Source: Pseudomonas sp. BP8 (GTDB lineage: Bacteria > Pseudomonadota > Gammaproteobacteria > Pseudomonadales > Pseudomonadaceae). From it: 64,000 nucleotides of DNA. The position numbers and the translations under genes are program-made. The DNA is taken from NCBI RefSeq assembly GCF_017875955.1, contig NZ_JAGINK010000001.1:2332001-2396000 (forward strand), written 5' to 3'. Of the stretch, positions 13,787 to 32,047 are shown in pieces. The notes below the pieces were generated by a model. The model had not been told where the DNA came from and searched no databases. It was given only the letters and a program-made list of their open reading frames with translations. Every line of letters starts with the position of its first letter. Position 1 is the first letter of the stretch.

Positions 13787-14299
13787 TTACAAGCCATCTC
13801 GTCCGTTCTGCTTAATAAATTGCTGAATCCAGATGATCCCTTTACCAGTGAACAGAGGAACGGGAGTGATCTTCCGCTTGCCGGTCTTGCGGTCCACGCA
13901 ATTGACCCACACAACCTTGAATCGTCCAGCATCCAGATGTTGCTGGTATGGTAGGTTGCGCTTATATCCCCCGCCCATCAGAATCTTATGCTGAACAAGA
14001 TATTTGACGAACCTTGTCTTGCCCGTATCATTCGCCTTAGCAGTGACGCCTGTATTAAAGAGCTCCTCTGTGCCGGCCATGTCGTCGTAGAACTCTACCT
14101 TATCTGCATCAGCATCCAGCTGTCGTTCCAGTACATCCACTAAGCTAGTCAGTGCTTCGCGTTCTCCTTCCAGATCAGCAGCGAGTTTTAGCGTGTTGTA
14201 GAGCGTATTCGGCACCGTGAAGGGGGTTCCGTTAGCCATGATTACAGCGCCAGCTGTTTGGTTGTGTGTTGGGTGGGTGTATGTGTTTTGCGTTTTCAT
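13787..14299 (-). CDS. KilAC-domain phage antirepressor-like protein
   Basis: This is a 170-residue protein. After a Thr/Asn-rich leader, residues about 35-60 form a coiled-coil-like helix (LEGEREALTSLVDVLERQLD). Residues about 65-150 match the KilA-C domain (KVEFYDDMAGTEELFNTGVT, then KYLVQHKILMGGGYKRNLPY). It is shorter than the Rha-type protein at 12410 and has only the KilA-C part. The N-terminal segment (AVIMANGTPFTVPNT) faintly echoes that of its neighbour (SILAGNGGPIEVPAFS), so the two may share ancestry at both ends. Likely role: prophage or island gene regulation. Confidence 0.7.
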   Translation of the reverse strand: MKTQNTYTHPTHNQTAGAVIMANGTPFTVPNTLYNTLKLAADLEGEREALTSLVDVLERQLDADADKVEFYDDMAGTEELFNTGVTAKANDTGKTRFVKYLVQHKILMGGGYKRNLPYQQHLDAGRFKVVWVNCVDRKTGKRKITPVPLFTGKGIIWIQQFIKQNGRDGL

Positions 14300-14991: not shown

Positions 14992-16296
14992 CTAGGCTTG
15001 GGTCACGGGAATATTGCGAAGTGCGTCCATCATCGCGTTCAACGGGGATCGGCTGCCATAAATGCTGAAGGTCACCGCGCTGTCCTCGTGCCCGGCGATT
15101 CTCTTGATGAGTGAGTCCTGTACCCCGGCGTCGCGTAAGTCGTCGATGAGCGTGTGGCGAAAACTGTGGAAAGTCTTCCTCGGGTCGGTGATGCCCAGCT
15201 TCATCTTGTACCGCCCAAACCACTTCGAGGGTGCGTGGCCCAGCTTCCCTCGCACCGCTTCTAGTTCGGGGAACAGGCGATCAGCTCCAGTCGCCTTAAC
15301 TGCTTCAACATGCTGAAGCAGGCCTAGATCGATAAGTGCGGGGTGCAGAGGCAGCACACGACGACTGCTGGCGTTCTTCAGGTTTTGTCCTTCGCGACTG
15401 TCATCAACGCGGATGCACTGGATGCCCTGCTGTTCAATGAAGTCATCGACACGTAGTTGGCACAGCTCTTCAATGCGTGCCCCAGTGACTCGCCCAAGCA
15501 GCGGCAGCCAGTAACGCCATGGAAGCTTGCGGGCTTCTTTAAGTAGGAAGTCCTGGTTTAGGAGAATTATCAGGTCGCCAGAGTCGAACGACAGCCGTGC
15601 CTCTTTGGCAGATCCTGTCATCACTTTCATTCCGGCTAGCGGGTTGTCAGCCACATACCCGTTCACCCTGCACCAATTCAGGAAGGCATTGAGCTTGCGG
15701 AGCCTGTTGTTCACAGTCACGGCGGTGATGGGTTTGTACGTGCTGCCTGATTCCACCACCTGTCTCAGGGTCTTGCCCTTGAACTCGGGGCGTAGGCCAA
15801 AGTACTGGGGGCAGCGACTGAGCCGTTCTTTCAGCAGGCGGGCTTGTTGAGCATCGAACGCTACCGCAGGCATATCACCCATCAGCTCGAACAGATCCGC
15901 TAGGGCACGTTCTACGTCATCGATACTGCCCTGCCGCCATGTGCCGCCACGTTTCCCTTCTTCTATATAGAGCTTCGAGAGAGCAGCGAGGGTAGGGCCG
16001 TTACTTGACGGGTTGGCTGGGGTGACCGTTGCCCGGTGCAGTTGCGGCAGGGTGGTTGGCAGAGGTGACGAGTCGCGCCATTGAACGCACAGCACACGCA
16101 GAGTCTCGGGGGACGTTAAGGGGTGTTCGCTCAGATGGCTGTTTACCTGCTGAGCAAGTGAGCTGGCAAGGTACAGGGCTGCCTGACGCTCTCTCACTCG
16201 CAGCGATAGACGAAGGGTGTCACGGTTCGGGAACAGGTGCTTCGGTAGTCTCAGGTTGAGGTAATAGACAGACTGTCGGCGGACGATATAGGCCAT
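14992..16296 (-). CDS. Tyrosine site-specific integrase (ffs-integrating island)
   Basis: From ATG at 16296 this is a 434-residue phage-type integrase. The N-terminal segment (MAYIVRRQSVYYLNLRLPKH) is the short SAM-like start seen in island integrases with a DUF6538-type N-terminus. A core-binding domain follows (about 120-240). The catalytic domain has the Arg in TGARIEELCQL, the box HSFRHTLIDDL (H-x2-R), then GHEDSAVTFSIYG with the His and Tyr nucleophile. All catalytic residues are present, so it should be active. A longer frame reaches back into ffs but is excluded as it overlaps the RNA gene. Its position against ffs indicates that the island recombined into the 5' part of that gene. Confidence 0.92.
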   Translation of the reverse strand: MAYIVRRQSVYYLNLRLPKHLFPNRDTLRLSLRVRERQAALYLASSLAQQVNSHLSEHPLTSPETLRVLCVQWRDSSPLPTTLPQLHRATVTPANPSSNGPTLAALSKLYIEEGKRGGTWRQGSIDDVERALADLFELMGDMPAVAFDAQQARLLKERLSRCPQYFGLRPEFKGKTLRQVVESGSTYKPITAVTVNNRLRKLNAFLNWCRVNGYVADNPLAGMKVMTGSAKEARLSFDSGDLIILLNQDFLLKEARKLPWRYWLPLLGRVTGARIEELCQLRVDDFIEQQGIQCIRVDDSREGQNLKNASSRRVLPLHPALIDLGLLQHVEAVKATGADRLFPELEAVRGKLGHAPSKWFGRYKMKLGITDPRKTFHSFRHTLIDDLRDAGVQDSLIKRIAGHEDSAVTFSIYGSRSPLNAMMDALRNIPVTQA

Positions 16297-16307
16297 GAGA
16301 TCACCAG

Positions 16308-16342
16308 AGTGGACCACTAAAGTGGACCAATTGAGTGGAACA
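16308..16342. repeat. Three tandem AGTGGACCA repeats, 13-bp period
   Basis: AGTGGACCA at 16308-16316 and 16321-16329, then AGTGGAACA at 16334-16342, start exactly 13 bases apart, directly upstream of the integrase start. They are candidates for integrase arm sites or an operator. Confidence 0.6.
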
Positions 16343-16436
16343 ATTCTGGTCACACCCCAAGCCATGAGCGTCCATGCGTGGTGTTCACGCAGGTAGAGAT
16401 ACTGCACCCTCATCAGCCTCAAACCCTTTTCCTGTA

Positions 16437-16546
16437 AGGCCTGCATTGATTCCCTTGCATGCTTGCATGCTACCTGGTCAGATCCGGAAGGAAGCAGCCA
16501 AGGCGGGGACATTGAGTGCCGGGGTGTGGCTGGTGGGGCCGCCTCC
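16437..16546 (+). ncRNA. ffs: 4.5S RNA of the signal recognition particle
   Basis: The diagnostic SRP domain IV loop GGTCAGATCCGGAAGGAAGC (about 16478-16497) and following GCCAAGG are perfectly conserved, as is the descending arm ending GTGGGGCCGCC. This RNA binds Ffh to target membrane proteins and is essential. Its 3' end reads GGGGCCGCC, which would pair with GGCGGCC at the 5' end, but the 5' end here reads AAGGCCTGC. The outermost pairs thus appear to be changed where the island joins. The 5' boundary is approximate. Confidence 0.93.
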
Positions 16547-16853
16547 ATTTCAGGGGTCGGAAAATATGCCGACTGTCCTGCCTCAGCGTCAAACCTCCCT
16601 CTCCAGAATTTATTCGCTGTCTGCCTTGCTGGCGGATGGTGTGTTTGCGGGCCTCTTCGCGGGTCAACCTCCAGCGCTTATCAGTTAAGGCTTGGTCGCC
16701 TGGTTTGGGGCCGCTGCGCAGCCCTTTCGCGACACAAGGCCGCTCCCACCCTGATCGTGCATGCTCCCTATTTACAGGGCGAGCGCGGACGGTGTGGAAG
16801 CGGCCTTGTGTCGCGAAAGGGCTGCGCAGCGGCCCCGGCAATCTCAAGCCAGA
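16547..16853. repeat. Intergenic long inverted repeat (REP-like)
   Basis: GGGGCCGCTGCGCAGCCCTT (16705-16724) continues to about 16743, and its inverted copy lies at about 16796-16836, so arms of roughly 38 bases enclose about 50 bases. Both arms carry GTGTCGCGAAAGG. No coding sequence is seen. This is a common Pseudomonas intergenic repeat type distinct from the GTAGGAGC family. Confidence 0.7.
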
Positions 16854-17106
16854 CTCAATGCAACCGGCTACGTGCAGCCTCGATGTCGTCCATGATCGCC
16901 TTGGCAAACGCACTCAGGTAATCGGCAGCCCCAAGAAACTTGTGGTCATCCTCCATATCCCCTTCGCGCACCAGGTGTTTGATATAGCCGAGCAGCACTG
17001 AAGTTCAAGGGTGTGGGCCAAGGCGTCAGGTGGGTAAAGGTCGGGTTGAATGGAGGCGTAGATGGGGCTGTTGTCGGAAGAGGGGGGCGGGCACTATTTT
17101 TTTCAT
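16854..17106 (-). pseudogene. Frameshifted DUF3077-like small gene
   Basis: A good ribosome site (GGAG) precedes ATG at 17106, encoding MKKIVPAP, a start shared by a P. putida family of small proteins related to DUF3077/DUF6124. After a C-rich run the frame shifts: DNSPIYASIQPDLYPPDAL continues in another frame. A second shift leads to VLLGYIKHLVREGDMEDDHK and finally AKAIMDDIEAARSR before TGA at 16854. Removing one C in the run restores the first junction. Two shifts indicate an inactivated gene, unless they are sequencing errors. The family identification is from memory. Confidence 0.5.
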
Positions 17107-17160
17107 GGCGAATCTCCATTTCAGCAGGAGCTGCCATCTCAGCCTTCTTACGGGTCAAGG

Positions 17161-17373
17161 TGGCAGCCGTACGCAGGGTGAGAAACCGAGGAAACGGACA
17201 AACTCGGCCAGACCGAAGTCTGCCGGCGTACGGCTGCCATAACGGCTTGCCGAATGAGTTTCGTACGGGTTCTCACACCCGGTCACCAGATATGGCGACC
17301 CGAGGAAGTTATCCCCGAGGCATATCCCCGACAAGACAGGCGCTTCGGCAAGGCGCGTAGGATAGTTCCGAAG
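17161..17373 (-). ncRNA. Structured leader of the small gene at 17106
   Basis: On the minus strand a perfect 14-bp stem (TGGCAGCCGTACGC with GCGTACGGCTGCCA; plus coordinates 17161-17174 and 17226-17239) encloses two hairpins. One is CAGAC-TTCG-GTCTG, a C(UUCG)G tetraloop, and the other is CCGAG/CTCGG. Two further stems lie upstream: GGGT/ACCC (17267-17280) and CTTCGG/CCGAAG (17343-17373). It ends 54 bases before the gene's start codon. A cis-regulatory RNA or independent small RNA is likely; no known Rfam family is asserted. Confidence 0.5.
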
Positions 17374-17495
17374 CACGACTAATCTGAAGTATTTGGTTTC
17401 AGGTTCGGAAATGTCCTACGACTGGAGGGCATCTGAGGTGTCTGAGGGCTGCACTACCGCGCAGAGAACAAAGCCTTCAAATACGGCGCATACCC

Positions 17496-17610
17496 CTGTA
17501 GGAGCGGGCTTGTCCCGCGAAGAGGCCGGCCCAGCCACCCCGGTGTATGGCAGGCACCGGCTGTGCCGGTTTCGCGGGCAAGTCCGATCGCCGCACCGCC
17601 GCTCCTAAAG
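17496..17610. repeat. REP element pair
   Basis: CTGTAGGAGCGGGCTTGTCC at 17496 with a degenerate inverted partner ending GCTCCTAAAG at 17610. This is the usual P. putida REP family with a decayed right arm. Confidence 0.7.
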
Positions 17611-17617
17611 GATTTCT

Positions 17618-18025
17618 CTAAATCAATTTCCGCCTCGGCTCAGCCGGCAGCGCCCCCGCGGCCGACAACTTCATCAACCGCTGAAACGTCGGACACGCCA
17701 GATGATCCTTCTCCGGACACGCCGCCGCATGCCGCAGACCCTTGCTCATCGCCTGCAACCGCTTCACCCGCGCATCTATCTCGTCTGCCTTGGCGATCAA
17801 CATCCCCCGATCCACCTGCAGGTCCACCAGCATCGCGCCCACTTCGTCCAGCGAAATACCCGCTGCCTGCCCCAATGCAATCAGCGCCAGCCGATCCGCC
17901 ACGTCCGCCGCAAATTGTCGGCGCTGACCGGGCCCTGACAACGACCGAAGCAAGCCGATCTTCTGGTAGTAACGCAGCGTCGAGGCAGGCACTCCAGTGC
18001 GTTTGGCCACATCGGCGATGTCCAT
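17618..18025 (-). CDS. MerR-family transcriptional regulator
   Basis: This is a 135-residue MerR-type regulator. The N-terminal winged helix-turn-helix (MDIADVAKRTGVPASTLRYY, then QKIGLLRS) is typical, followed by a dimerisation helix. The C-terminus holds two cysteines (CPEKDHLACPTF), as in metal- or redox-sensing members, but the sensed signal is unknown. The gene is divergent from a DUF2938 membrane protein, and the shared region carries a palindrome in a promoter with a 19-bp spacer, exactly the MerR arrangement. It therefore likely controls that neighbour. Confidence 0.88.
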   Translation of the reverse strand: MDIADVAKRTGVPASTLRYYQKIGLLRSLSGPGQRRQFAADVADRLALIALGQAAGISLDEVGAMLVDLQVDRGMLIAKADEIDARVKRLQAMSKGLRHAAACPEKDHLACPTFQRLMKLSAAGALPAEPRRKLI

Positions 18026-31984: not shown

Positions 31985-31998
31985 TTCGGGATGGATTT

Positions 31999-32035
31999 GC
32001 CGGCCTCTTCGCGGGTAACCCGCGAAGAGGCCGGC
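31999..32035. repeat. REP palindrome after ccoP-2
   Basis: GCCGGCCTCTTCGCGGGT and its exact inverse meet at the centre with no real loop, 12 bases past the ccoP-2 stop. It may act as the operon's terminator. Confidence 0.85.
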
Positions 32036-32047
32036 ACTGACAGACCG

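Follow-up and report, generated by a model that had tools for sequence, protein, structure and literature searches.

A decayed C4-type antisense RNA in a Pseudomonas genome and its relatives in the leaders of DUF6124/DUF3077 genes

C4 antisense RNA, icd and ant of bacteriophage P1 are covered in PMC8198154, a structure prediction for the Rfam family (RF01695) in PMC4666395, and occurrences of C4 in Burkholderia and Xylella in PMC4603805 and PMC12189769, respectively, as far as the accessible parts of these sources go; the accessible text of PMC4919922 holds a reference mention only. According to the accessible part of PMC5320573, the b′ segment of C4 occludes ribosome-binding sites, a′ provides specificity and RNase P processes the RNA. 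The same text describes 'Group 1' sRNAs of A. baumannii that arise by processing of longer transcripts at a GGW motif, and states that the motif prediction of Weinberg et al. 2010 covered Pseudomonadales. In the P1 record, the a2 site directly follows the end of the Rfam C4 match and b2 lies 11–18 nt before icd.

Here, we analysed a window of 64,000 nucleotides from the genome of Pseudomonas sp. BP8 (hereafter, the host genome), in which the leader of a small gene had been proposed to contain a new cis-regulatory RNA. Novelty did not hold: the RNA scores far above the RF01695 cut-off and, judged by its sequence, belongs to a known RNA family, the C4-type antisense RNAs (Table 1). An Rfam scan at the window leader returned no riboswitch family. 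The perfect 14-bp stem that the earlier note had drawn around two hairpins, one with a C(UUCG)G loop, is nevertheless real and belongs to the minus strand, and the further stems seen ahead of it include an a1/b1-like element, whose score against c4-a1b1 (RF03163) stays below the gathering cut-off.

The C(UUCG)G loop exists on the minus strand only (CAGAC-UUCG-GUCUG), arguing that the window RNA is read on that strand, toward the small ORF with its ATG at 17106–17104. A covariance model made from the 24 C4s of the host genome (window copy included) gave 88.8 bits on the minus and 22.8 bits on the plus strand, and an RNA from the plus strand was ruled out on this ground. Folded alone, the window C4 reached −44.4 kcal/mol (z −6.6), equalled by none of 200 shuffles, and the minus-strand stretch 17100–17380 had a z of −3.83 (0 of 200 shuffles); the plus strand of 17161–17373 also yielded a stable fold (z −4.14), because the palindromic arms pair on either strand. 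Single-sequence minimum-free-energy prediction for the minus strand drew the inner hairpins otherwise than in the Rfam fold; the basis of the two-hairpin C4 fold is the Rfam model together with covariation.

Table 1 Features of the C4 module in the window (all on the minus strand).
Feature	Position	Strand	Basis or remark
C4 antisense RNA (RF01695)	17156–17244	−	68.4 bits, cut-off 45
C4 closing stem	17239–17226 with 17174–17161	−	coordinates checked
C4 hairpin 1, UUCG loop	17222–17209	−	coordinates checked
b′ loop GTTTGTCCGTTTCC	17190–17203	−	loop pairing analysis
a′ segment TTTCTCACCC	17176–17185	−	loop pairing analysis
a1/b1-like target element	17262–17312	−	30.3 bits, under cut-off 46.7; b1 not clear
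a1 core GTGAGAA	17276–17270	−	sequence
a2 site GTAAGAA	17145–17151	−	one mismatch against GTGAGAA predicted from a′
b2 site GAAATGGA	17115–17122	−	over putative ribosome-binding site
ORF1 5′ part (MKKIVPAP...)	17026–17106	−	frame broken, stop after 26 codons
ORF2 3′ part, DUF3077 remnant, 47 codons	16855–16998	−	21.8 bits, cut-off 21
TATCCTAC, conserved upstream element, candidate promoter or operator	17357–17364	−	named-locus comparison
TAGGACATTTCCGAA, upstream motif in part of the host genome's copies	17404–17418	−	motif scan

All 24 C4 matches in the host genome lie above the cut-off. The earlier note had recommended looking for the same stems before related genes, and this search bore out its expectation: 18 of the 24 C4s are followed by the ORF1 start motif (read by hand; the copy at 2011113 has an early stop), two by ORF1 remnants (the window copy and 2012201), and four precede other small ORFs that appear phage-like by eye. 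Twenty-one a1/b1 matches adjoin C4s, 15 of them above cut-off; in this search, run at E up to 1, five of the 26 host-genome matches lie away from any C4, and matches were also obtained in 9 of 14 control genomes, none above cut-off. By protein family, 14 of the 24 C4s precede a DUF6124 or DUF3077 match and 14 of the 17 DUF3077 matches have a C4; the genome's single DUF6124 match is without one.

A search with a paralogous ORF1 protein led to 79 named loci (from the best 80 of 87), 77 of which are labelled Pseudomonas. The scan patterns contained MKKIVPDP, so that the common protein start of these loci reflects selection; C4 was absent from the query. Every one of the 79 loci has a C4 above cut-off, with the ATG 45–61 nt past the C4 end (median 51). 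Two records with C4 and ORF1, L094 (labelled Pantoea) and L124 (labelled Paucimonas, a MAG), represent either transfer or mislabelling. Across three related genomes, a same-strand C4 lies no more than 900 nt upstream of 69 of the 76 DUF6124 matches above cut-off (26/30 in G005, 27/29 in G010 and 16/17 in G018), with chance at about 0.3%. Conversely, DUF6124 or DUF3077 matches above cut-off follow 31/42, 29/36 and 18/30 C4s in these genomes, a count over all 108 C4 rows including four under the cut-off (three in G005 and a partial one in G010). The supposition that the structure stays near the gene start and is common to a gene family is thereby supported.

Compensatory changes among copies, the absence of which the earlier note had named as grounds for refutation, are present. 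The C4s of the listed named loci comprise 84 matches, 82 of them distinct, and 20 of 27 pairs show changes on both sides among these 82 sequences. Altogether, 97.6% of cells are paired (0 of 500 shuffles for each of five measures, against 35–45% pairing in slid controls), in an alignment that leans toward the fold because it was fitted to the host-genome C4 model with the Rfam fold.

The loops, in turn, match their own leaders. For the energy permutation, loop similarity was used to reduce the 79 listed loci to 49 non-redundant loops. In this set, b′ reaches −13.83 kcal/mol with its own leader versus −9.22 with others, and a′ −9.68 versus −7.88 (0 of 20,000 permutations each). In 70 of the 79 listed named loci, a′ forms seven or more contiguous pairs with the leader's first 30 nt; these come in many covarying types and begin, at the median, 5 nt past C4. 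For b′, a run of at least seven pairs occurs in 68 of the 79 listed loci, 57 of these 68 overlapping positions −14 to −8 from the ATG, and is absent in 11; when b′ is set against strangers' leaders, a run of this length appears in 40%, and 30% of those fall at −14 to −8. In the listed loci, b′ and a′ likewise prefer the stretch upstream of their own C4 to those of other copies, as expected for a1/b1. Within the host genome, an initial test on longer segments that included stem letters found the cognate leader best for 4 of 24 C4s (permutation 0/20,000), and trimmed loops raised this to 11 of 24, with the cognate in the top three for 21. When a′ and b′ were combined, using loops read by hand and leaving out two C4s whose leader is missing, the cognate was the best of 22 leaders for 18 of 22 C4s and was outscored by another leader for four. 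Comparison at the sequence level thus establishes the fold, its fixed place ahead of a gene family and a cognate complementarity that varies from copy to copy.

In our main reading, to which we assign a probability of roughly 0.85, the C4-type antisense RNA sits in the leader of the very mRNA that it would control. We infer co-transcription, cutting, repression and its release, as follows. One transcript would run from the promoter through a1/b1, C4, a2 and b2 with the ribosome-binding site into ORF1 and, at part of the loci, ORF2; C4 would fold and then be excised (by RNase P in P1); and a′ would pair with a2 and b′ with b2, covering the ribosome-binding site and leaving ORF1 untranslated. 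In Pseudomonas, this device would have been multiplied to serve DUF6124/DUF3077 genes in place of the phage genes icd and ant. Since sister copies mostly carry a private key to their own gene start, the phage immunity device seems to be the usual lock of this family. More tentatively, and at somewhat less than even odds, Pseudomonas genomes may maintain a variable library, 0–42 per genome, of operons each locked by a C4 with a nearly insulated antisense key, the phage immunity device having become the usual control of DUF6124/DUF3077 genes, perhaps for defence, superinfection immunity or variant switching. If true, DUF6124 and DUF3077—families of unknown function—would gain a testable regulator, many chromosomal C4 RNAs of Pseudomonas would gain a likely target, and antisense switches that are nearly insulated would be available as a natural set.

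As a member of the family, the window copy is unremarkable and decayed—a remnant. The leader does lie close to the start codon of the small gene suggested earlier (ORF1 starts at 17106, 50 positions past the C4 end), but that gene is a pseudogene. Against the intact paralog at 4250168 it aligns as two pieces with 285 bp omitted, arguing that the 5′ part of ORF1 was fused to the 3′ part of ORF2 near 17002/17001; besides this deletion, the ORF1 frame is broken. With its coding part a pseudogene, the window C4 has probably lost its own cis role. The b2 site GAAATGGA still forms eight contiguous pairs with b′, including one G-U, at the expected place, a match that by itself is not beyond chance, and 10.6% (b′), 13.5% (a′) and 5.9% (sum) of 2000 random 62-mers from the window equal the observed pairing, which fits a decayed copy. 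Its own leader comes second of 24 when b′ is scored alone and first in the host genome when a′ and b′ are combined. A promoter and terminator scan of 16800–17640 found none. That the copy is dead altogether, with neither transcription nor target, we regard as an even bet: the broken frame, the loss of about 285 bp compared with the intact paralog, the a2 mismatch, the low a1/b1 score and a pairing within chance speak for it, whereas its C4 score is still similar to those of copies ahead of intact genes and both TATCCTAC and the upstream motif are retained.

The module has a mobile-looking neighbour. An integrase ORF (14992–16548, minus; PF00589, 49 bits) overlaps a partial small SRP RNA (16444–16538, plus; 36.9 bits, cut-off 40), of which a second copy (77 nt, 92% alike) lies about 21 kb leftward, as if an island had entered an SRP RNA gene. 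Inverted repeats at 16717–16826 and around 17495–17605, REP-type by eye, flank the module; the former also drew a meaningless microRNA match under the cut-off. A weak match to the C4 model at 31993–32041 (plus; 23.7 bits, E 0.003), without an Rfam match, is probably due to chance.

Could this C4 belong to the adjoining integrase island instead? Its target would then be the antirepressor-like ORF at 13787–14299 (minus), which carries a phage KilAC/ANT domain (71.1 bits), as does P1 Ant1, and near which a search found no C4 of its own. The leader of that ORF even pairs with b′ slightly better than the cognate does (−12.6 versus −11.8), yet 5.9% of random 62-mers equal this pairing, and over the whole a′–b′ region the cognate prevails (−24.5 versus −17.9). 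Moreover, the island seems to end at a repeat beyond which the C4 module lies, and sister C4s precede ORF1 throughout the genome; we consider an island target very improbable. Better placed, though still unlikely, is the idea that chromosomal C4s work chiefly in trans, against the mRNAs of paralogs or incoming phages instead of their own, and that the window C4, its gene gone, would be a pure trans-acting RNA. Four of the 22 C4s do score higher on another leader, the window stem is still perfect, and trans targets have been proposed for the C4-like RNAs of A. baumannii in the accessible part of PMC5320573. Against this stand the preference of 18 of 22 C4s for their own leader, the C4 ahead of ORF1 in 79 of 79 listed named loci (best 80 of 87), and the window copy, for which the host genome offers no clearly better partner than its own leader, the best by a′ and b′.

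The probing with cell metabolites proposed in the earlier note implied a sensor, and a metabolite-binding riboswitch or another leader refolded by a ligand would share the position ahead of a gene family and the conserved fold. The b′ loop, however, is private to each copy and tracks its own ribosome-binding site, unlike a conserved ligand pocket; we rejected a riboswitch as very improbable on account of this loop, which varies with its target, and of how strongly the RNA matches RF01695, an established family of antisense RNAs, and rate it slightly less credible even than the island target. The comparative evidence points instead to antisense pairing with the leader and the ribosome-binding site.

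ORF1 proteins of the listed named loci begin with M-K/L/R/F-K-..VPDPP... and are 67–108 aa long. Behind ORF1, a DUF3077 protein (ORF2) is found in 29 of the 79 listed named loci, with examples in the host genome, and is missing or not recognised in 50. Of five further ORF1 proteins, four score above the cut-off for DUF6124 or DUF3077, and comparison of the two profiles, ORF1 against ORF2, gave a probability of 96.2% that they are related; an NCBIfam scan of six proteins returned no family. The predicted ORF1 model consists of two helices, that of ORF2 (pLDDT 87.7) of a beta hairpin and two helices, the latter with no fold match in PDB or BFVD at E ≤ 0.001. Neither ORF1 nor ORF2 matched a phage collection at E 0.01, and a phage origin of the cargo was dropped, notwithstanding an ORF2 match to PHROG 36471; blastn with C4/a1b1 DNA against phages returned nothing in a search that was insensitive, since it missed P1 too. 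Kinship of ORF1 with Icd was likewise not supported (0.8% in a direct comparison; Icd has no Pfam match above cut-off). The accessible part of PMC9630843 reports a DUF3077 pseudogene in P. putida.

Further upstream, TATCCTAC occurs about 123 nt ahead of C4 in 48 of 76 listed named loci and in none of 72 control stretches, suggesting a candidate common promoter or operator. The second upstream motif matches the host genome at 14 sites, of which 11 precede a C4, and a reversed control gave 0. Its shortened pattern is found at only 2 of the 83 C4s of the listed named loci, and TAGKNCRTTTCCNAA was dropped as a general operator despite the 11 of 14 here. Three host-genome sites (L139, L140 and L141) have TAGKNCRTTTCCNAA and no C4; a DUF3077 match lies downstream of L140, so this promoter region may serve additional genes.

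C4 was detected in at least 32 of 36 same-genus genomes (host included; 0–42 per genome, at least 585 matches summed), in at least 4 of 21 further genomes from the same order and, in a class-level draw, in at least 17 of 273 other genomes with 1–6 copies each; all are lower bounds owing to stricter filters, and the class draw scored 15 candidates per genome and holds 15 of the host's 24 C4s. In the accessible texts of a literature search whose scope lay outside subscription journals and supplements, no paper linked C4 to DUF3077 or DUF6124, and the known RNA family thus appears in a widespread cellular use undescribed in that literature. The accessible part of Weinberg et al. 2010 (PMC2864571) presents the same C4 and c4-a1b1 motifs in Proteobacteria, gamma-Proteobacteria and phages, and names there neither the gene family nor copy-specific pairing. 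The 'Group 1' sRNAs of A. baumannii are similar in that many C4-like RNAs occur per bacterial genome; unlike here, phage or trans targets were proposed, the accessible part of PMC5320573 naming no gene family and no pairing with a cognate leader. The closest parallel is the c4-icd-ant (immI) operon of P1, whose C4 has the same fold (68.8 bits with Rfam, 49.7 with the host-genome model) and which has the same order of a1, b1, C4, a2, b2, small ORF and second ORF; as in P1, a2 follows right after C4 and b2 covers the ribosome-binding site in the Pseudomonas copies. The cargo differs, ORF1 having no evident kinship with Icd and ORF2 being a DUF3077 protein where P1 Ant1 has a KilAC domain, as does the copy number, with one C4 per phage in P1 and many chromosomal copies per Pseudomonas genome.
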